DNA from: Stereum hirsutum FP-91666 SS1
Taxonomy: Eukaryota; Basidiomycota; Agaricomycetes; Russulales; Stereaceae
NCBI RefSeq assembly: GCF_000264905.1
Contig: NW_006763136.1
Location: forward strand, 663,934-727,933
Direction of reading: 5' to 3'
DNA: 64,000 nucleotides
In this document: piece by piece, positions 44,995 to 63,150 of the stretch
Layout of the letters: every line of letters starts with the position of its first letter
Numbering within the stretch: the stretch's first letter is position 1
Notes under the pieces: model-generated
The model's input: the letters and a program-made list of their open reading frames with translations, nothing else
The model's database searches: none
Told to the model about the DNA's origin: nothing
Made by a program: the position numbers and the translations under genes

Positions 44995-45512
44995 TCAGAG
45001 GTCGATGGACTTCCTGATTGTGCCCTTAAACCAGGTTCGAATGAAGATAAGTATCATCGCGCAGGACAACAGGAAGGAAGGGAGAGGTTGAAAAAGAATT
45101 CGTTTTAGATACCGTGCGAATATCGGTAGGGGCCACATCAGCGTGGTCATGACCAGTGCCACGCTGTTGACGTCCTCTTTCAGCCTCTTTCCAACCATCA
45201 TCCAACCTGCTGCACAAAGTCCATTGAACGTTCGTACCAGGTGTTTCAGAGCAGTATTGATCTCTACTACAGGCTTAGTGAGTAGTTCGTGCGGAAATCA
45301 AGTCAGATCGCCGTCGTTTCCGTTGCTGACCGCCAGTGGCCCACGTACGACTCCAGTCTAACAGCTGCACTGGCCGCCACCATCCCAACGATGTACGCAC
45401 ACAAAGATCGGTAAGATCTCATTTCTCTCTCAACGTAGATCATCGTTGAGCATCCTTCGATGCAGCGCCGAAGATTGGTGGCCTGCGATAGCTCATCCTC
45501 GAACACTTCCAT
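44995..45512 (-). CDS. Small membrane protein of unknown family
   Basis: From ATG 45512: MEVFEDELSQATNLRRCIEG, then REMRSYRSLCAYIVGMVAAS. A GTGGGC...CTAAG intron is followed by PVVEINTALKHLVRTFNGLC, AGWMMVGKRLKEDVNSVALV, TTLMWPLPIFARYLK and a strong helix PSFLLSCAMILIFIRTWFKG, ending RKSIDL at 44995. Two or three hydrophobic helices and a basic C-terminus suggest an integral membrane protein. The stop lies 7 bp from the end of the CACTA-like element, in host DNA. Its first exon overlaps, antisense, the N-terminal coding region assigned to the F-box gene, so one of the two starts is probably wrong. Function unknown. Confidence 0.55.
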
Positions 45513-47368
45513 TTCACGATGTTTCGTTAGACAGCGATAAACTGACTGTCAGCCACACTATCGAGGCTCTTGACGAAGAAATTTTGGCCCTCCGGCAACT
45601 GACATCGGCGATTTCCGCCCGTAGGAACAGGCTGGCTGGTATTCATAAGCTCCCTGCAGAGCTGCTGGAACGCTGCTTTTGGTGGCTGTCTCTCATGAAC
45701 CCACCGGAAGCGACTGTGCAGAAACCGCCAGGGTGGAGTTTGGTCGAGCCAACTTGGATAAGTTATAGTGAACTACCTCGGCAGCGTCACATAGGATGGA
45801 TCAAGGTGTGTTAATACACTTCTCGATACAAAGTTCTTAAGTTTAACACTGAACTCACTCAGGTCACTCATGTCTGCCGGCATTGGCGAGCTATATCCGT
45901 CAATGACAGCACCCTATGGAATGCTCCTTCCTCTGATCTAGGCTATCACTGGGACGTTGAGATGTCCTCCCGCGCTCAATGCGTACCCCTCATCATCTCT
46001 CACACGATCGCTATCTACGAGGATTTGCGTTATGCAGAGCAAATGTTTCCTATGCGTATACCGCACACAAAAGACCTCTTTATTCGGACTACGAAGGAGC
46101 TTATGGGCGAAGTCTTGGAAAGCGCATTCTCTCTATCCGCTCCCTTGTTGTCGAGACTCGATTTATGCGAGCTCGGCTATGACGAGGAGCCACTCCCGGA
46201 CCCCGAGCTTGTCGAAACGCTTGAGGTCGAACACGATGCTTGCATTCCACCCATTGTATTCGGGCATAACCGACTAGAGCACCTCAGACTACAGGGCATC
46301 CCGTTGCCTCGAGCTCTTACATCATTTAGCAATCTTGCCAGCCTCTCTTTGACCGAATCTGTTCGCTTCGATGGCGATGAGGAGCTTGATCTGTCTCCTT
46401 CAGACATACATAGTATACTCCAAGGCCTTCCAAAGCTGCGGGAGCTACTCCTTCACCGCTGTTTTTCAATCCACACTTATCCCACACCGGTCGGGATCAA
46501 GTCCGTATCTCTGAACGAACTTGTAACCCTTGACATCGAAGACAGATCCCACGCTGTTCGTGATCTTTTAGTTGGGCTGGTCCTTCCACCTTCATCTTCC
46601 GTATTTCTGCACATGTGGATCAAAAACGAAAACCTTCACCTCGAGGACGAGCACCCCATTACCTCTATTTTTGGCGGTCCCTTGGCGGGCCATTCCTTAT
46701 CCGCCACAAACATATGCACAGTGATGATAGATCCCGATTTCCCGTCGAGAGGGGCCTATTCGGCCGCCAAAATAACAGCGTGGCCAGTCAACCTTCTCCT
46801 TCATGGGCCCCTCGACATCTCCAGCATTACCTATCGCCCTTACATGTCTCTGTCGTGGAATTGTCATCATACATCCATTGACCCCCCGAGATCCGTGCTT
46901 CCTCAGCTACTCGCTAAATGGGACACGAGTCATGTCCAAGCTCTGATACTACGTCGCGGTTCACTATCACACAGCTCAGGATTTGTATTTCCTGACGCAT
47001 TTCCGAACGTTCAGCAATTTCACCTCGATGATTTGGATCTTTGTTTACTTGGTCCTCCCCCATATCACGACGCGCTCCGGACCGTGCTCTTGGGTCGGGA
47101 TGCGGAGGGGGCCTTGGGACATGCTCCGGTTGTGTTTCAAAAATTGGCGTCTATATCGTTGCGCTGCACCGACCTTACATTGCTCTGGGAGCCGAATCTA
47201 CTCCTGTGGCGTCGTGAATTGCTCTGTCTTCTCAGAGACCGAAGATCACGTCAGGACCATCCCACTTCACTCAATTCGCTGCACTTTGTGGCATATGAGA
47301 CAGTGGTCGATGTAAGCTTCGCGGAGGAACTGAGAGAGATTGTTCCCGTTGTGCGGTGGGATCCCTAG
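45446..47368 (+). CDS. F-box protein with leucine-rich C-terminal region
   Basis: The N-terminal helix (IEALDEEILALRQLTSAISA) precedes an F-box-like motif, HKLPAELLERCFWWLSL, with a mushroom-type insertion before an intron; it then continues VTHVCRHWRAISVNDSTLWN. The long remaining exon gives LRR-like repeats (FGHNRLEHLRLQGIPLPRAL, FSNLASLSLTESV, LQGLPKLRELLLHRCFS) and ends at 47368. F-box proteins recruit targets to SCF ubiquitin ligases. No ATG precedes the motif in frame: the listed start is a TTG, so the true start is in an unseen upstream exon or the gene is truncated. About 600 residues, typical for this mushroom family. Confidence 0.78.
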
Positions 47369-51434: not shown

Positions 51435-51993
51435 TTACCGATCTGGTACGCTACTGACACTTGTAATTGAAGCTCTCTTCTGAAATATGCGCATATGCAC
51501 TTGGTCAGTGATCACCGTGGTGGAGGGAGCAGTTTGACGGGATGCTTACTTGAACGTCGTCGAGCTCACGCCCATAGCCCCGTAACCTCCAGCGTAAACG
51601 CCACAGCCTGCAGCTCAATACGTCAAACACTTCAATAATCTCGTGAAAGAGAGTTGTTGCCGTGTGGACTCGCAACTACATTCCATCGTGTTGGGCGAGT
51701 AGGCTGAAAATGAACGGTGAAAGCCGAGCGATGAATACGTTACTGAACACACCGAATGGGTTGACGAAGAGTGCGTACTTCTTCCATACCATACAGATCT
51801 CTGCGTATACAGCATCATTGTCGGTGCGCTCCATGCGAACATCGATCTCGTTCTGCGCCGTCTTGAGCACGACTTCGAGGGCCTCAAGCTGCGTGCTGGG
51901 CAGACACCATCGGAAGATCACAGAGACAACATTCAGCAAGTACAGAATGTTGACCGAGAGACTGAGAACATCTAGAGCGTTGTTAGAAGTCAT
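51435..51993 (-). CDS. Small-protein family, copy 1
   Basis: Three exons (51790-51993, 51550-51675, 51435-51479) give 124 residues. Exon 1 has a hydrophobic helix and then the family motif (LSLSVNILYLLNVVSVIFRW, CLPSTQLEALEVVLKTAQNE). Exon 2 is an amphipathic, Arg-rich helix (LFHEIIEVFDVLSCRLWRLR). Exon 3 is a short polar tail (KRASITSVSSVPDR). The same three-part layout recurs at 54455, 55985 and 58939. The upstream sequence also resembles copy 3 (encoded APHY before the ATG). The family is not recognised; a single-pass or membrane-associated role is inferred from the helix only. This is the most divergent copy. Confidence 0.7.
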
Positions 51994-52915
51994 GGCGATT
52001 ATGCTTTGATAATTGCTGGAGTAGTGTGGGGCATCGTCGACACCAGCGAGCATCGTCTCATTTCGCATGAAAGACCGTGAGACCTCATACCTAGAAAAAG
52101 GCTTGGTAGAGTGAACAGTGACAAGATACACAGACAACCGCACGGAATATTTGAGACTCGGAGGACGCTAGATGAATCGCGAAGGAAAATCAACAAGGTC
52201 AACTCTGTAAGGCTTTGCTAAATTTGACATGTCGACGAAGGCAAATAGTTTTGATATTCTGCTGGGTTCAAGGTAGAGAAACTGTCGTAAGGCAGAGTTC
52301 TGCTTTAAACGAATGGATACTTCATGGCCGCGAAGGAGATGGGGGTGTTGGTTCAGAGAGAGTATCGCAAAGCAGCGCTCGCGACGATGCGTTAGGTTTG
52401 TTGAAACTTGACATGCTCGGTCACGACCGTCAGGTGATCTGGGCAACCTGGTCCAAAAAAGTTTGCAATTCGCAAGCATCCGGAGAAGAGCCAATCATAG
52501 GCGAGAAACGCATCATCGCGATGCGCAGATGCCCGTCGCTCGCATTTTCCGACAGACTTGATCGCTCAAAATGGAAGTCTAGAGGGAAGGTCCAACGGCG
52601 AGAGCCGAAGGTAGGCTGCAGGCGGCCTGGAGTATTTTGCGTATACATCGACCAAAACACTTTGATCTCCTCTGATAACCACCATACACGATGTATTGTA
52701 AAAATTTGCTATGGATTATTATTTTTCCAATTTTATCTTGAGAGAAACGGAAGAGCAGTCGAAAGGGACTCGTGCAGGACGTGTTGAACATTCTTGTGGA
52801 CCATCGCACGGGTCTCTCCGACGACGTCCCCGTCAATCACACTCAACCGATTACCTCTCTTGCTCTCTCTATTTCGTCCCAGTCATCTCTTTCATCCTCT
52901 ACCATACCCACCCAC
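51994..52915. other. No gene recognised
   Basis: Shared upstream side of copy 1 with overlapping frames of poor quality on both strands. Confidence 0.4.
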
Positions 52916-52969
52916 CACACCTGCCCTCCACGACACACCTGCCCTCCATGACACACCTGCCCTCCACGA
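52916..52969 (+). repeat. 18-bp minisatellite, three units
   Basis: Three head-to-tail units of CACACCTGCCCTCCACGA; the second has one substitution (CATGA). The unit length is a multiple of three, so a plus frame reads HLPSTT/HLPSMT/HLPSTI, but no gene is supported there. Confidence 0.9.
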
Positions 52970-53109
52970 TTCCTCATCCCCTCATTCTGTCTTTGTTGAG
53001 TCGTCGTACCTATGACAAGGGGGAGGCATAAATAAAATAAAAAACCGGGGGTAGGGGGGAGGGGGGTCCGGGGGGGTCCTTAAATGTGAACTGTCCTGAC
53101 CTTACGCGG

Positions 53110-53741
53110 AGCCGTTTTCAGTCATTTTAGCAACTTTTTGACAATTTTTTACATGGTCTTATGTACTTTTCATGCATCTCTTACTCTAATATCAAGGTTT
53201 GAATGTTTTCTATTGACCTCAAAATCAGAAAAGGCTGTATATGAACAATTTTAGGCTAGGTTAAGCTACGGTCGACGTCGGTCATCCCCTCCCCTAGCCT
53301 TAGGCTAGGTTACAACAACATTGATAAAAACAATGATTTACTGCCACAATAACCCTCCATTTTGATCGTTTATATTTTGAGAAAGGTATTAAATAAATCA
53401 TTTAAAATCATTTAANNNNNNNNNNNNNNNNNNNNAGCCGTTTTCAGTCATTTTAGCAACTTTTTGACAATTTTTTACATGGTCTTATGTACTTTTCATG
53501 CATCTCTTACTCTAATATCAAGGTTTGAATGTTTTCTATTGACCTCAAAATCAGAAAAGGCTGTATATGAACAATTTTAGGCTAGGTTAAGCTACGGTCG
53601 ACGTCGGTCATCCCCTCCCCTAGCCTTAGGCTAGGTTACAACAACATTGATAAAAACAATGATTTACTGCCACAATAACCCTCCATTTTGATCGTTTATA
53701 TTTTGAGAAAGGTATTAAATAAATCATTTAAAATCATTTAA
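53110..53741. repeat. Identical 306-bp block on both sides of an N run
   Basis: Bases 53110-53415 and 53436-53741 are, as far as I can read, identical, from AGCCGTTTTCAGTCATTTTA to AAATCATTTAA. They are separated by 20 N. Unmerged contig ends at a scaffold gap explain this better than a true tandem duplication. Confidence 0.9.
53416..53435. other. Assembly gap (20 N)
   Basis: Twenty undetermined bases, the only gap in the window, placed between two identical 306-bp blocks within a transposable element. Confidence 1.
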
Positions 53742-53841
53742 ATATTTGAGGGGGGGGGAGGGGGGGAGGGGGGTAAGGCCTTAAACGTGAAAGGTAAGAT
53801 CCGGTAACTGATTTTACGGGTGCCTCCCCCTTGACCTATGA

Positions 53842-54454
53842 CACACCGGTAGGATGAAAGGCTTGAAGAACGTCTTGAATGCTCAATCAGATTATTTGAC
53901 ATCGATATAGGGGGCCACCAGACGTCGTACGTCCCACTGCTCACATGGATATTTGGCAAAGCAGACCGTGTAGGTGAATGATATTCGAACCTGTGTGTTC
54001 GACCCGACCGAGAAACATAAACTATACACATACTCACAAAAACCATACATTCCCTTCCTTACCTACTAACCAACTTAACTCACCCTGCGCAGACTCTCGC
54101 CAACTCTGGCTACTGAACAAGATGTTCTGCTGCTGACACCTAGGTCTCTCCGCTTACCTGTCACAGTGTGCAGGTTAATTATTGCTCTCTGTTCGTTCTC
54201 CTCTCCGCCGTCCCCTGGATCGCTGGCTTATCGATTTATCACGCACGTGCATCGACGAGCACACCCGCTGACTTCCATGTAGCCCCAATCCAAGGACCCA
54301 CATCGGTCGACAAAGGTCTATCTCGCGCAGCTGTCGCCCATGGCTTCCGAGGCGGAATCAATTGCACAAATAGTCACTCTATACTCCCTTGGCTGCTCTG
54401 ACCGGTATCCTTCACGTATCCATTCGCCGCTCCGCCTAACATTCTACGCAAACA
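53842..54454. other. No gene recognised
   Basis: Upstream region of small-protein copy 2. A plus frame at 54168 has an N-terminus resembling a signal peptide (FVLLSAVPWIAGLSIYHARA) but lacks an ATG (it starts with GTG) and gives no further support. Confidence 0.35.
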
Positions 54455-55015
54455 ATGTCTCCCACCGACTCGTTCAGCCTCTTCATCAATGTCATTGATC
54501 TTCTAGACATGCTTTTCCACGTCTTGTGCTGTGTTTTGCCTAGAACGCAGATATTGAACCTTAACAACGCTTTGGATGGCACGAAGAAAGATCTCGAGAG
54601 GGCGGAAGAGATGGGGATTGAGGTACAAGAGTTCAAGAAGGACATGCAGATGTACGTTCTACTTCCTCTGATACGAAACATGACGAGACTCTGAGTTTCT
54701 GCCGCTTTACTGGCGGATTTCTTTGAACAGGTACATTAAACAGCGTGAGGTGTTACACGTCCGCATCGGAAGATCGACTGTGCTGTATATGGAGCTGGTA
54801 GATGCTACGATGGGCTTGACGTGCAAAGCTCGAGCTGTGCTCTGGAGGGTAAAGGTTTTGAGGAGGGCCATCACGGTGAGGATCAGGATCGTTCACGTAG
54901 CTCAAACGCTATTTGTATGTCGCTCATTCATTTATGTTCTATACTCGTTCTTCCTTAGATTTCTATCCTCAAACAACAACAAATCGGAGACGCTGAGAAG
55001 ACACTCGTTGTTTGA
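54455..55015 (+). CDS. Small-protein family, copy 2
   Basis: Exons 54455-54651 (197 nt), 54731-54875 (145 nt) and 54959-55015 give 132 residues. Exon 1: MSPTDSFSLFINVIDLLDML then FHVLCCVLPRTQILNLNNAL and a charged coiled-coil-like segment (KKDLERAEEMGIEVQEFKKD). Exon 2: YIKQREVLHVRIGRSTVLYM then ELVDATMGLTCKARAVLWRV. Exon 3: ISILKQQQIGDAEKTLVV. Exons 1 and 2 have exactly the same lengths and phases as those of copy 3, strong evidence that both are real and homologous. Donors are GTACGT and GTGAGG. A hydrophobic helix at residues 8-29 suggests membrane association. Function unknown. Confidence 0.78.
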
Positions 55016-55984
55016 TGAATAATATGTAGGTCAGTAGACTCAGTCTTCTAATTGAAATAAGATCTTCGCTGACGCTCCGTTTGCCATCTGTTTACCGCTT
55101 TGCGTAGGTATTAGCGCAAAGTCTTGTAACGTCCTTGAATCTACCTTCCCTTCGAGACACTTTACGCGGGATCATCTACTCGATAGCCAGTGATGCGAAT
55201 ACAGAATTATATATAAGGTCATTTCTGCGAAACTCCATCAGCACTCGCGTCTTGATATGCCTTTCCGCTGTCGATACACCGTTCCAACTTGAAGAAGACC
55301 TCGCCAAGCTTGTCTCATCCCTCGGGCCTCGTGCTTGCTTTAGAGAACGTGTACTGTGTCGGGTGAAAGATGCGAGTGCACTAACGTTAGAAATACAAGC
55401 GAGCAACAGGCAGTCTCTGAGTTCGAGGATCGAGGAAATGATAAAGGAGTAAATGGGACGCAGTTCGGACATAGACATGTCGATACGGACACTCTGATGC
55501 GTGTTCGAGCTTGTCGCGCACGTCACTCAGCCTCCAAACCAACTCCAGCCGAATTGAATCAGTTCGCACATCAAGCGCCGGCAGTTTCCGGGCAAACCAA
55601 GTTGAACCGGTTAAACGCCACACGGTCAAGTTGCTGCCCTAAGTATCTCTCCTTTGCCCTTTTCGTCTCACAATCGTGGGTGCGCTCTCTATCGTAAATC
55701 CTATTATGGCGAATACAAGGAAGACTGCCCACATATTGCGCTCAGAATCATCAGAAGGTATCCATACACGACTAAAATACAGACAGGGATGGCGGCACAT
55801 ATCTCGAGACAGTATGTAGAACCGTCCATACGATTGGATGGAATAGAAGAGATGTTGACAGAAATGAGAGATGCTAGAGATTCTTGTGAACTGCGATGGA
55901 ACGAAGGGCACCGCGCCCTGGTGAGAAGATGACGTTCCATGAGGGGTCAGTCGAGGAGACGTACCGGTTGTCATACATGAGTGC
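55016..55984. other. Spacer between convergent copies 2 and 3
   Basis: It contains fragments with family-like character but no intact gene. A plus frame reads SIRLDGIEEMLTEMRDARDS before a stop near 55930, vaguely like the exon 1 coiled part. A minus frame holds one hydrophobic helix (MWAVFLVFAIIGFTIESAPT). These may be remnants of further copies. Confidence 0.3.
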
Positions 55985-56781
55985 CTAGACAGTATGCTCA
56001 TCTTCCTTGCTCGTGTTAGCAGCATCTCTGGGCGGAGCATTCGCTTTCTGAGTCGCAAACTACACATCAGTGAGGGTACAGTCAATTACCCCGTGGTGGG
56101 CCAGTACCCCGTAATGGGTCACCTTCCAAATGCGGGCGCTCGACACCTCATATGGTGGAGTTGTGCTCCCATTCGAAGCTTTGGAGCATGATATCATAGC
56201 ATTCTTGGCCTTTCGATGCCAGCCCTCACCGTAAACAGTAGGTGACCCATTACGGGGTACTGGCCCACCACGGGGTAATTGACTGTATCTTCAGTGGTGA
56301 AGCCGAAGACAAACAGGCGGGAGTGAAGCACTGACGACGACATCTTGATGAAGCCTCTTAACCCTACGCGCAGTAATATATACAGTCCAGGTAAGCCCCG
56401 TGGCCGCATCCATGAGCTCCCTGCCAAGGCTACTCGCTATTAGAGCGCGCTCGATGAGTGGGTCACACTGCTCCTGACAGCTATAAAAAAGACGGACCGG
56501 GTTAGACAAGAATAGAGTGGACGGACGAGATAAATGTAATATTAGATCTGGAGGCGGTTATAAGACAGGTTAGTGGGCGCGTACCTCTGTAGCTCTCCCC
56601 TGATACATCCAACATCGAGTCCCATGTCTACCGCCCTTTCCGCCGCTGTCTTCGCCGTCTTCAGCATCTTCACCAACTCTTCCACCTGCGTACGCGGCAG
56701 GATCCAGACGAGAAGCCGCAGAAAGACGTCGATGAGAGACAGTATGTTGATGAAGAGGCCAAAGTTATCCGCCGGCGACAT
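55985..56781 (-). CDS. Small-protein family, copy 3, intron 2 carries a MITE
   Basis: Exons 56585-56781 (197 nt), 56336-56480 (145 nt) and 55985-56059 give 138 residues. Exon 1: MSPADNFGLFINILSLIDVF then LRLLVWILPRTQVEELVKML and KTAAERAVDMGLDVGCIRGE. Exon 2: CQEQCDPLIERALIASSLGR then ELMDAATGLTWTVYITARRV. Exon 3: FATQKANAPPRDAANTSKED. Intron 2 is 276 bp; removing the 207-bp element and one TA leaves 67 nt, a normal intron here. The exons are intact, so the gene may still be spliced correctly. It is convergent with copy 2 and divergent from copy 4. Family unrecognised. Confidence 0.8.
56079..56285. mobile_element. Tc1/mariner-type (pogo/Fot1-like) MITE
   Basis: A 207-bp element with near-perfect inverted repeats of about 46 bp starting CAGTCAATTACCCCGTGGTG, flanked by TA on both sides (56077-56078, 56286-56287). 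The AGTCAATTACC end and TA duplication fit the pogo/Fot1 group. No coding capacity. It lies wholly inside intron 2 of copy 3. Confidence 0.92.
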
Positions 56782-58938
56782 TTCGTAGTAAAAATAGTGA
56801 GGTGCTTGGCGCGGGCTAAGATTAGAAGAGGGGAAAGGGGGCTCGATGGGCATGGGGCACAGATGTATGCGAAACGCATTTGCGGCCTGTCATGTAAGCA
56901 TTCGTGGGTATATGTGGGCGTTCCGTGCAGAGTGCATGCTTGAGAAGGTTGGCTGTGAAGCAGACCCCGAAAACTTTCCCAGAAGTCCGAGCCTGGTAAA
57001 TGTGTTGGGGCGCAGATACGAGGAGGTTGCGGTAAGATCAGTGAGCAATCTGCAGTGCTTCTCATCCACTGTACGCGTATGTGAAAGAACCGGTCGGCGA
57101 GGTAAAGACCACGTCAAAGTTGGATGTTAGGCCTCACAAAGTCCTAATTTCATTGGCTCAGATTTACAGCTGAACAGCTGAACAGGAATGAAGTTGAAAA
57201 AAACAGCTAGAAAATCCACTCTGAAGGCCCTGATGTCCCATTTGAGTGCATTGGTTTTCGGGCAAAATCAGAGGTCAGATCCCCCGTGCGTATGCCAAAC
57301 ATTTGGGGTCATTCAAACCTTGAGGGTCATTGCTGGGGTCCTCGATGGGGGCAAAAACCTTCTCCTTACTCCATGTTCTCGATGGTGTACTACTGACTAT
57401 GATGGTTGGGCGCGCTGGGAAAAGATTGAGCAGACAAGGTATCCTGCAAGATCAGAAGGCGAGAGAAGGGCTCCATACGGGCCTTGAGAGGAGATACTGG
57501 CCTCAATCAGTGCGATTGAACGGTCATCGGCTGCTATCAGTGAAGCGCTCTAACTTGCGGTTGCTGCACTGAGATGAACTGATACAAGCTTGCGTACTTG
57601 GAGCCTGTGATCTTTCAGCTGCCGCGTTATGGAATACCATCGGCATAGTCAGTTGGAACGTCAGAACGCTGTGTACTAGAAAGGGTTGTGCACTTGTACC
57701 ATTCGTTCTCAAATATCCAGGAGTGGACACGGCGAAATGTCGGCGACGTCTCTGATTGAGGGTGGTTTGAGGGTGGTAGTGTCAACAGCCATTGAACTAT
57801 CCTTTTCCCTCGATGAAACCCACACACGGGCTGAAGACCTTACATTAAGTCATCGCGAGAGTCTCCGGATTGCACCATCAACTGAGGCGGCAAGAAAATC
57901 AAAACAATTTCTCAGAACAGCAGACTCCCGGCCAATGACACGGATGTGCAACAACGAGCAATGTGCATCGACAGACACTCGGTATCCAGGAAGGAAGTTA
58001 CAACATGAGAACACACGTACATTGATTCCAGTGGGACAGCGTCAGATGTTGCTATATCATGACTGAGAGACTAGAGTGAGGGCGCTAAAATATGAGAAAA
58101 TACTGTCAGTTCCTGAGTGTCCAAGTCCGAGAACAAGACGAAAAGTTGAAGAAGACCTCAAGGACTCCCATCGCAGCAAGACTCGAGCGACACAGAGGTT
58201 CGAAGTCTAAGGTCTACGCGTCCCGCTTCCGAAAATATCAGGCGATATGCGAGGGTATTCCATTTTACGGAAGAATACATGTGGTTCCTCCAGAGTGAGA
58301 AAACAGATCTGACATCGGTCTGAGAACAGAACTTGCCAGGGAAAGGTACATATATGATGTGGGCTTGGATGCGGGCCTTGGTGCCTGTCTGATGACGACG
58401 GACCAACCACGTGAGGACCACGCGAACGATGATCGAAGCGAACACGATGACGGCGTTCGTCCTTCTGCACTTTTGCAGCATCTTCCAGTCGTCGATTCGG
58501 GCCACTACTTTTTTAGTGTCCCATAGTCATGGCTTCCCATTATGTCGAATTCTTGACACTGTCTTGACATGGCATGGACATCTGACAGCTAGGAAATCTC
58601 ACTGTTTAAAGGCCACCACGCTCCCGTTCTTCCGATATGCACGCCGCTTTCTCTTACGGAGTTGATGTCGCTCTACGCTCGCCCAAATCAGGAGGTCCAT
58701 TTTCCCTTTCACCGTCGATCTTGCTTCCCAGCATTGGACGTGGATTTCCCACCGCTCCCTCATGTAGAATCTCTAGGACCCGATCCAGGCCTCTCGTATC
58801 CATAATGGTCGCGCGAAAGGACCGCTCTAAACATCCAGCTTCGGTTCAAAGGATTCGTCCCTCACTTTATCGACATCGATCACCGTGTCCGCCGCCCTCA
58901 TCTTTCGCTACTGTCCACGCATCTCATCAACGTACAGC
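56782..58938. other. No firm gene
   Basis: A 2.1-kb spacer between divergent copies 3 and 4. A minus frame near 58480-58330 (TNAVIVFASIIVRVVLTWLV followed by basic residues) could be an exon of a small single-pass protein, but no partner exon was found. Other frames look like noise. Confidence 0.3.
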
Positions 58939-59510
58939 ATGGTTTTAGGATACCTCAACGAGAACAGGCCGAGGACGAAGATGGAGGTATTGGGACACGC
59001 ATTGAGAGATGCGAGGATGGAGCTGGACACCCTGCGTAGCGTGTCTGCTGGCCTGGAGTACGACGTACGTGCGTATGAAGTCACGTTGAACCGGTGCGTC
59101 TTTCGTTCTTTCCTTTGCAATACTCTGGATGTCGTGCGCAGACTCATTTTTTTTGGGCGCGGAACAGATTTGAGGAGAAATACAAGATGCTTGGACCCGC
59201 CGCTGGGGCTGTTGAGAGCGAGCGTGGCACTCGGCACCCCGAAGGACTGAGTTTGAGTTGGGAGCTCGCAAATATTGCAACGGGGTCGGCATGGACCGTG
59301 GCGGGCCTGCTGGACGGAGTGAGATGTTTGAGGAGGGGTGTACTGGTACGTTCGCACATTTCATGGCTCTCACTTTGAATATGAGTATGATGCTCATTGA
59401 AACCTTGATTGTGAATTTTCCAGTTGGCTATTCAGAAGGCACGTCAATCGCAACCAGGGATGCATCGCGAACAGTCGTACGAGAAGGACGAGTATGAGTC
59501 GATTGTCTGA
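58939..59510 (+). CDS. Small-protein family, copy 4
   Basis: Exons 58939-59093, 59168-59345 and 59424-59510 give 139 residues in phase. Exon 1: MVLGYLNENRPRTKMEVLGH, ALRDARMELDTLRSVSAGLE. Exon 2: FEEKYKMLGPAAGAVESERG, then LANIATGSAWTVAGLLDGVR. Exon 3: LAIQKARQSQPGMHREQSYE, ending at 59510. RPRTK replaces the LPRTQ motif of copies 2 and 3, the DAATGLTW-like block of exon 2 is kept, and the exon 3 tail resembles that of copy 3 (xATQKA/LAIQKA). The N-terminal hydrophobic helix of the other copies is missing from this start; it could be in an upstream exon or lost. Donors are GTGCGT and GTACGT. Confidence 0.65.
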
Positions 59511-61133: not shown

Positions 61134-63150
61134 ATGGCTGCACTTGGCAATACTGCACTGACCTCGGCTGAAGAAGTCAGAATCGAAAAATGGCGTCAAC
61201 AACTCTCTAGCATTGACCCCCAGAGAATCATCGACCTTGTGTCGCTGCAACCCGTTGGCTGGCTAGATACCTGGAGCGTGGGTCTGATCATATATGTGTT
61301 AAGACAGAGCGACCACTCTACTTACTGCACTGTGCCACAGGACCACGTGGATGTGTTGCGCGCTCTGAACAGGGCTGCCCACAATTGGGATCTGGGTTTC
61401 GAGCGGCTGGTCATGGCGGGATTGGTCGAGTCGATGTGCCAAGGGGTCATATCCCGCCAGCTGGCTCAGAACCATTCTAACTTCTCAGTAAGCTCCATAC
61501 ATATAAATTGTTCGTCTTTAGGTCCTGATGTAGATACTATACATAGGAAACCATGAAACTCATGAGCATAATTGGGCGTGCGGTTGATTCCTTGGAGTAT
61601 CCACTAACGTCGTCCCAGAAGCGATTCATTGTTGCAATCAGGGAGCATTGGAAAGATATGGTGGAAAGCGTGAGCCGATACCATACATTTTCGAATTCGC
61701 CATCCGGAACTGATCATCGCCTATATCATCTTCATAGCTATGGAACATACCTCTGTCGAGACTTCTTCCCTTAAGAGTGCGCTATGTTTATGGGCATCTT
61801 ACAGAGCACATAATAGCTTTTGATCCTTCGATATTGAGGTAAGTTTGGACCCTGGTTGGATTCATTTTTGATCCGAGCTTGAGTTATGGAACTGATAATC
61901 CTTTAGCGTGATAGACCAGCCGGAAGACCTGACTGTGCCCATGATATTCAGGTGTTGGATGGAGTCAACGACAAGAGACGACCTCATGAGCACCACGAAC
62001 GCTTTGTTCAACATCTTTGGCGCCAACCCAATGCGTCCTTGCCCAGCAGCTAAAGAATATCGAAAGAGTCACCCAGTGCCTTCCCATATAATCTGCACAC
62101 TACTGAAGGGCGTCCCACATGGATCTACTCGCCTACTCCTTGAAAGGACGTTGCAAATTCTGTCAAAAGCTCACATCATGGAATTCGCCTCTGTACTACA
62201 GCTTTTTAGCCTTCTTTTCGAGTCTGCGCACTGGGGACCGGAAGCGGACACGTCTTTTATCAGAGGTGTCTGCCGGTCTAAACCCTTATTCACGTTCCTA
62301 TTCTCCGCTCTCCGAGACCCAGAACAGATCCACCCAACGATGGAAAGGGAACGCCGTACCGTTGCCCCTTTCATTTTCCGCTTTATCAATTCCTGCTTTG
62401 ACAAGCTGAACATTGCCCCGACTCAAGAAATCGAGTCGTTCTTGAAACTACTCTGCAAACATGCGAAACTGCTGGACATCCTGGAGATGATGATGACACA
62501 GGGCGACACCTCTCAGATCGAGCTACGTACGTTGTCACCATCCCCTCTTTGCCCACTGAAATTCGACCGCGCATCTTTCTTTCATGCGTTGTATACTGAC
62601 CAGACTGATTGGAATCCCTCAGAATATGTAGGTGACTGCATTACAGGCATTACACAGCTGTTAGAGGGACGACCAGTCCTTTTGCCCATCGTCCGAGCCG
62701 ACCTTCCCCGTCCTCGCTTGAAGCATGCTTGTCTAGAGAAAGCCCTTGGCGCCTCTGTTCAGCCACTTATACGCGTCGAGGGGCCATCATTGCAAACCCA
62801 CGCGTGGTACCTCGTTGATCAATTTGAGAACATGTGCCAGGTTGACCGCCAGTGCATGAGAAGGGGCTGCAAGCGGACGCGTAGAGCACGATGCAAAGAT
62901 TGCAAGGTGACGGAGTATTGTAGTTATCAGTGCCAGAAAAAGTGAGTGCGCTCAATCTTTTTTTTTCCATGCGAACTGGAAGGCCTGACCGAAAGGACTC
63001 TGCTATTTTTTGACCAGGGACTGGCCGGACCACCGTCTTGTTTGCGGGCTTAAATACCAGGCCAACAGCTTTTTCGACAAGGCAATTGTTACGGGAATAC
63101 CGGACAGGTTCCCTTTCAGGTTTTCGCGAGGGGGATCACCGGTGTTCTGA
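61134..63150 (+). CDS. MYND zinc-finger protein with C-terminal finger
   Basis: Start at 61134 (MAALGNTALTSAEEVRIEKW). Exon 1 ends at 61487. Exon 2 begins ETMKLMSIIGRAVDSLEYPL; exon 3 reads LWNIPLSRLLPLRVRYVYGH; the long exon 4 starts in VIDQPEDLTVPMIFRCWMES and carries an all-helical region. The MYND finger is at the very C-terminus: RGCKRTRRARCKDCKVTEYC, SYQCQKKDWPDHRLVCGLKY, split by an intron inside the Lys codon. Stop at 63150. A helical N-terminal body with a terminal MYND finger is a common mushroom architecture, different from the N-terminal-finger genes at 20373, 33098 and 35102. Function unknown. Confidence 0.86.

Follow-up and report, generated by a model that had tools for sequence, protein, structure and literature searches.

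An alternating-strand array of eight genes for small, predicted helical proteins in Stereum hirsutum appears to belong to an unnamed family of mushroom-forming fungi

INTRODUCTION

What is encoded by a run of small genes lying on alternating strands in Stereum hirsutum, and do these genes stand by themselves or belong to a wider family? The question is raised by a stretch of 64,000 nucleotides (nt) from strain FP-91666 SS1 (here, the window; C6:663,934-727,933, contig NW_006763136.1), in which an initial annotation described a four-copy family of three-exon genes and recognized no known family. Here, we report that these genes are part of an array of eight (c1-c8) that is, judging from sequence comparison, a divergent Stereum lineage within an unnamed family occurring in several orders of mushroom-forming fungi. 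We propose, with moderate confidence, that the array encodes small helical, membrane-anchored proteins that would oligomerize through coiled coils.

RESULTS

Rebuilding the gene models from sequence confirmed four related genes in the window, at the positions and on the strands first proposed, but the family has eight members rather than four, the others lying just past the window end (Table 1). The eight copies alternate in strand (-,+,-,+,-,+,-,+) and span 23,333 bases on C6. When the genome was searched with exon 1 of c3, we found seven places, all on C6 between 715.8 and 738.2 kb, which correspond to c1-c3 and the four copies beyond the window; c4 was missed by this query. Five array queries (c3 exon 1, c8, c6, c1, and c4) against the 46-Mb genome gave no significant site outside the array, the sole extra place from the last four being on C7 (E = 3.09); place counts from these searches are lower bounds. 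No conserved DNA was found between divergent pairs, as blastn over 46 kb (E <= 1e-3) linked different copies only at exon 1.

Relatedness was assessed by leaving out each copy in turn, building a profile from the others, and searching with it among open frames of at least 25 amino acids in 106 kb. Held-out exon-1 profiles recovered all eight copies (E from 9e-21 to 2e-4), with c4 the weakest (E = 1.7e-4). Those for exon 2 recovered c2, c3, c5, and c6 clearly (E <= 5e-6) and c7 weakly (E = 0.0095, with the best unrelated frame at 0.081), while recovery of c1, c4, and c8 was unconvincing (E = 1.4, 0.26, and 0.39), so the membership of these three copies rests on exon 1 and, for c8, also on a deposited protein. 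The comparison with shuffled sequences proposed at the outset upheld the kinship, since scores exceeded the shuffle mean in 28/28 protein pairs (200 shuffles); the lowest z values all involve c1 (2.8 with c4, 3.8 with c7, and 4.4 with c6), and every other pair reaches at least 7.3. The decayed copies suspected between the genes were not borne out, as the best other open frames in the 106 kb reached only E = 1.2 and 1.3.

The old shared exon layout that had been proposed is supported by the models. Intron phases are 2 and 0 in seven of the eight, and c2 and c3 do have equal lengths of exons 1 and 2 (197 and 145 nt) with these phases in both. Of the motifs described, LPRTQ is exact in c2, c3, c6, and c7 (4/8) and DAATGLTW in c3, with variant forms in the other copies. 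The models of c5 and c8, when checked, were identical to the NCBI proteins STEHIDRAFT_138992 and STEHIDRAFT_156193 of this strain. Two of the first models had to be redrawn. In c3, intron 2 contains a mobile element, past which the final exon lies. The splice sites originally chosen for c1 give phases 0 and 0, which are not of the family type. Family-type sites bring c1 to phases 2 and 0, with an intron of 75 nt, but exon 2 then has an in-frame stop, and the profile score rises little (9.8 versus 7.2 bits). This copy is probably broken in the sequenced strain, going by its reading frame; three relatives from elsewhere (P0007-P0009, with identities of 55/66, 56/68, and 57/67) have an uninterrupted exon 1. 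Valine is the C-terminal residue in six of the eight models (c2, c3, c4, c6, c7, and c8), whose tails otherwise differ; this may reflect a binding motif or have arisen by chance.

A first database search with the array, which requires shared exact words, yielded nine Logan proteins, each with one best copy: c3 for four (P0004-P0006 and P0011), c1 for three, and c8 and c5 for one each. Since these relatives match four different copies best, the array looks old; identity to the relatives is 77-88% for c1 and c3. Relatives' intron lengths were taken from two open frames that read through an intron: 99 nt against 110 for c8 intron 1, and 102 against 101 for c5 intron 2. Both differences (11 and 1 nt) are not multiples of three, and the exon frames are kept. 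Codon positions 1 and 2 are more conserved than position 3 in 7/7 pairs compared. Ratios of nonsynonymous to synonymous substitution (dN/dS, NG86), which leave out the non-computable pair c4-c5 and are read at near-saturated dS, are approximately 0.27 (c5-c8), 0.31 (c6-c7), 0.29 (c2-c3), 0.47 (c3-c5), 0.66 (c5-c7), and 0.20 (c1-c3).

The tree joins c6 with c7 (support 98/98), c8 with P0003 (100/99), and c5 with the latter pair (93/91), and it leaves the branching of c1-c4 unresolved. Because of these groupings, the right-hand quartet looks to have arisen by inverted copying of a divergent pair, before its split from the source of P0003. By pair score, c2 and c3 are mutual best partners, and c1 has no close kinship with c4 (score of 39). 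The inverted duplication suggested by the initial annotation thus fits the right quartet, but in the left one it fits only c2 and c3.

The layout of the array resembles that of small hypothetical proteins of mushroom-forming fungi, and we searched the Stereum genome with a made-up bait sequence modelled on them. The bait found two further loci, on C10 and C17 (L015 and L016), and a search with the C10 protein confirmed C17 (E = 1.4e-10 and 2.9e-10). A database search with the C10 protein and the bait returned six proteins, namely, one from Taiwanofungus, two from Rhizopogon, one from Suillus, and two others. In profile comparisons with hhalign, the array matched the real wider-family members at 97.6% over 114 columns, and it matched C10, C17, and P0013-P0015 at 98.5% over 109 columns in both main exons (score of 86.6); six copies, without c1 and c4, matched the wider family at 98.1% (score of 79.7). 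Control maxima for the score of 86.6 were 20.6 for column, 23.3 for heptad-keeping, and 34.6 for block permutations (100 each), and the reversed profile gave 13.8, so that the similarity exceeds the composition and coiled-coil periodicity controls (300 permuted profiles). Since the C10 protein by itself scores 17.9 bits on the exon-1 array profile and only 1.3 on that of exon 2, it is the profile comparison that supports the link through exon 2.

Further evidence of kinship between the array and the wider family comes from where the introns lie. Among the Stereum genes compared (array, C10, and C17), the first intron is in phase 2 and the second in phase 0 in C10 and C17, as in seven of the eight array models, and by eye the introns fall at the same alignment places (RLAR and RRDIM in c5 versus QLSV and RATIS in C10). 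Array and wider family also have in common a hydrophobic first helix, a proline turn, a charged helix, and a GL[ST]...VK-LR-type block, and the Suillus member has the same three predicted helices. On the other hand, the array members group in a clade of their own (support 98/98, or 100/99 when c1 and c4 are left out). The E-x-GLL-like and LRA[ST]-like signatures of the other members are missing from them, and only the array has eight copies at a single site. Exon 3 of L015 and L016 starts with a common RSSAEA, and their tails are apparently longer than those of the array; the two are possibly conserved wider-family members in Stereum. The array itself looks lineage-bound, because the word-dependent search with it returned only two Stereum proteins and the Logan relatives; a query with a consensus drawn up by hand from all eight copies (26 candidates) gave P0003 alone. 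The first impression that no known family could be recognized therefore stands insofar as the family is unnamed, but the array is not isolated.

Searches for known domains and folds were largely negative. No Pfam family matched the eight array members at E <= 1e-3, and seven families matched one member each, the best row being Cas6 for c2 (E = 0.0033, 17.9 bits versus a cut-off of 26.7), which we rejected along with a Glyco_hydro_18 row at only E = 0.0099. By sequence at E <= 10, PDB gave 18 distinct sequences (best E = 0.077), among which coiled coils are frequent, and by fold it gave no standout row for the c5 or Suillus models. The two Stereum locus tags and the four wider-family tags were not found in the literature searched, and the array genes are unnamed among the matches listed for Stereum, coiled coils, HeLo, mating, and incompatibility.

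AlphaFold predicted three helices for c5, at residues 3-26, 29-52, and 58-131 (the last with 74 residues; predicted local distance difference test [pLDDT] 80.0), and three for the Suillus member, at 3-32, 36-58, and 65-127 (the last with 63; pLDDT 84.4). One protein of each branch is thus predicted to have three helices with a long last one, from shallow alignments that share members, so the two models are not independent. Near the N terminus, the best 19-residue mean hydropathy exceeds 1.6 in c1, c2, c3, and c8, lies between 1.0 and 1.6 in c5, c6, and c7, and is 0.15 in c4; the first helix is membrane-grade hydrophobic in the five wider-family members tested. The hydrophobic helix initially ascribed to every copy is hence present in c1, c2, and c3 but absent from the c4 model, and membrane association is plausible, with c5-c7 borderline.

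A 207-bp element resembling a miniature inverted-repeat transposable element (MITE) lies inside c3 intron 2, which measures 276 nt with it and 67 nt without. Across the genome, the element is represented by 11 matches that cover 180 bases or more with an identity of 96% or higher; three of these are identical (the c3 copy and those on C8 and C15), and the element is young. Elsewhere in the window, 306 bp are repeated at 100% either side of a 20-N gap (53110-53741), apparently duplicated in assembly. Pfam rows came from three of ten open frames in the neighbourhood of the array: one is an alpha/beta hydrolase, one has a BTB domain, and the third, at 45362-47365, is an F-box-like gene whose match is sub-threshold (21.3 bits versus a cut-off of 24.3); two of ten further frames gave rows (sugar transporter and SPT5). 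The cysteine-rich end of the open frame at 61899-62942 presumably resembles a MYND-type zinc finger, and frames at 61899-63147 are partly similar to frames near continued position 84311-84779.

Table 1. Features of the array and its wider family. Positions are in window numbering, continued past the window end for c5-c8, unless a contig is given.
Feature	Position	Strand	Remarks
c1 exon 1	51779..51993	-	Family-type donor GTACGC, phase 2
c1 exon 2	51550..51703	-	In-frame stop at 51676-51678
c1 possible exon 3	51435..51479	-	Weakest part
c2 exon 1	54455..54651	+	197 nt, phase 2
c2 exon 2	54731..54875	+	145 nt, phase 0
c2 exon 3	54959..55015	+	C-terminal residue V
c3 exon 1	56585..56781	-	197 nt, phase 2
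c3 exon 2	56336..56480	-	145 nt, carries DAATGLTW
c3 exon 3	55985..56059	-	Beyond the 207-bp element; C-terminal residue V
c4 exon 1	58939..59093	+	Without hydrophobic helix
c4 exon 2	59168..59345	+	Insertion of ~11 residues
c4 exon 3	59424..59510	+	C-terminal residue V
c5	64066-64763	-	Beyond window end
c6	66528-67134	+	Beyond window end
c7	71570-72197	-	Beyond window end
c8	74100-74767	+	Beyond window end
MITE-like element	56079..56285		207 bp; 46-base inverted repeats, TA target duplication; inside c3 intron 2
L015	C10:844,938-845,367		Wider-family gene
L016	C17:697,219-697,646		Wider-family gene
AcV5_002162			Taiwanofungus camphoratus, wider-family member
K503DRAFT_369726			Rhizopogon vinicolor, wider-family member
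AZE42_11945			Rhizopogon vesiculosus, wider-family member
EDB19DRAFT_1639877			Suillus lakei, wider-family member

DISCUSSION

A typical member of the array is expected to have a hydrophobic N-terminal helix and an LPRTQ-like proline turn, followed by a short charged helix and then by a single long one. The first helix would be seated in or on a membrane, and the remaining two may fold into a hairpin able to self-pair or to pair with a sister protein; the array could thus supply diverged, possibly pairing, membrane-bound oligomerization modules, perhaps serving in recognition or defence processes that change fast. The copies, their layout, homology, codon-position constraint, and the relatives of four copies come from sequence, and the helices are predicted. 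Several observations weigh against our proposal. The first helix of c5-c7 falls under the usual membrane threshold and that of c4 is lacking; the most hydrophobic stretch of c5 is its C-terminal tail (2.07 versus 1.22 for the first helix), and the second half of c8 reaches 1.68. The models rest on 22 and 21 overlapping rows, with predicted template-modelling scores of 0.46 (c5) and 0.53 (Suillus member), the dN/dS values rest on dS of 1.1-4.5, c1 looks broken and c4 truncated, and deposited proteins were returned for only 2/8 copies in a word-limited database search.

Decay is the alternative to which we give most weight, although we consider it unlikely: an old array without function would be kept by chance, as the stop in c1, the lost first helix of c4, and the mobile element in c3 might suggest, but the conservation of codon positions 1 and 2 and the exon frames kept by the c8 and c5 relatives across introns of differing length argue otherwise. 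Somewhat less likely still, the proteins may be cell-death executors of the HeLo/MLKL-like kind, whose first helix inserts into the membrane after oligomerization and permeabilizes it under the control of other proteins. In Basidiomycota, putative single pore-forming HeLo/MLKL-like domains reportedly number in the hundreds (PMC9815663); in fungi these domains are likewise small and helical with a hydrophobic first helix, and the array proteins match them in size, hydrophobic first helix, and all-helical prediction. Yet Pfam gave no HeLo, Helo_like_N, SesA, Goodbye, or NACHT_N row for 8/8 members at E <= 1, nor at E <= 10 (where filters drop most weak rows) for seven proteins drawn from the two branches, and the predicted models place one long helix after two short ones, which would suit a hairpin better than a four-helix bundle.

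We think it improbable that the proteins form a membrane-remodelling scaffold acting like ESCRT-III/PspA, with the first helix on the membrane and a polymerizing helical hairpin. In fold comparison, their predicted models may share with ESCRT-III, PspA, and Vipp1 an N-terminal helix followed by a hairpin of long helices, but these proteins are absent from the PDB sequence matches at E <= 10, and their fold scores are tied with those of unrelated helices. Comparably doubtful is the idea that the array is a locus of mating-type-like or allorecognition kind, in which the partners encoded by divergent pairs recognize non-self versions. Repeated divergent pairs, strong divergence between copies, and the coiled-coil layout would suit it, but at E <= 0.001 the matches to the STE3 receptor are on C11 and those to homeobox proteins on C8 and C1, with none on C6, and the identity between c1, c3, and their relatives implies that divergence is not extreme.

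Our proposal of membrane-anchored oligomerization proteins can be carried further, at a low probability, to a recognition locus in which membrane coiled-coil proteins from divergent pairs oligomerize in specific combinations and mismatches trigger a response; that such mismatches would arise between individuals or in response to invaders is just as speculative. If this were true, the wider family would be an unrecognized membrane-signalling module of mushroom-forming fungi. From the low return of deposited proteins in the word-limited search, it also seems that short-exon genes of this kind escape automatic annotation.

Altogether, sequence and profile comparisons show hypothetical proteins of Russulales, Polyporales, and Boletales to be one family, whose gene layout is common to nearly all of the 10 Stereum genes examined and for which the proteins scanned gave no Pfam row that passes its cut-off. 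The array marks one lineage in which this family was multiplied, partly by inverted copying, and since it lies on one contig, with two other genes in the same white-rot fungus, the function of the family is testable.
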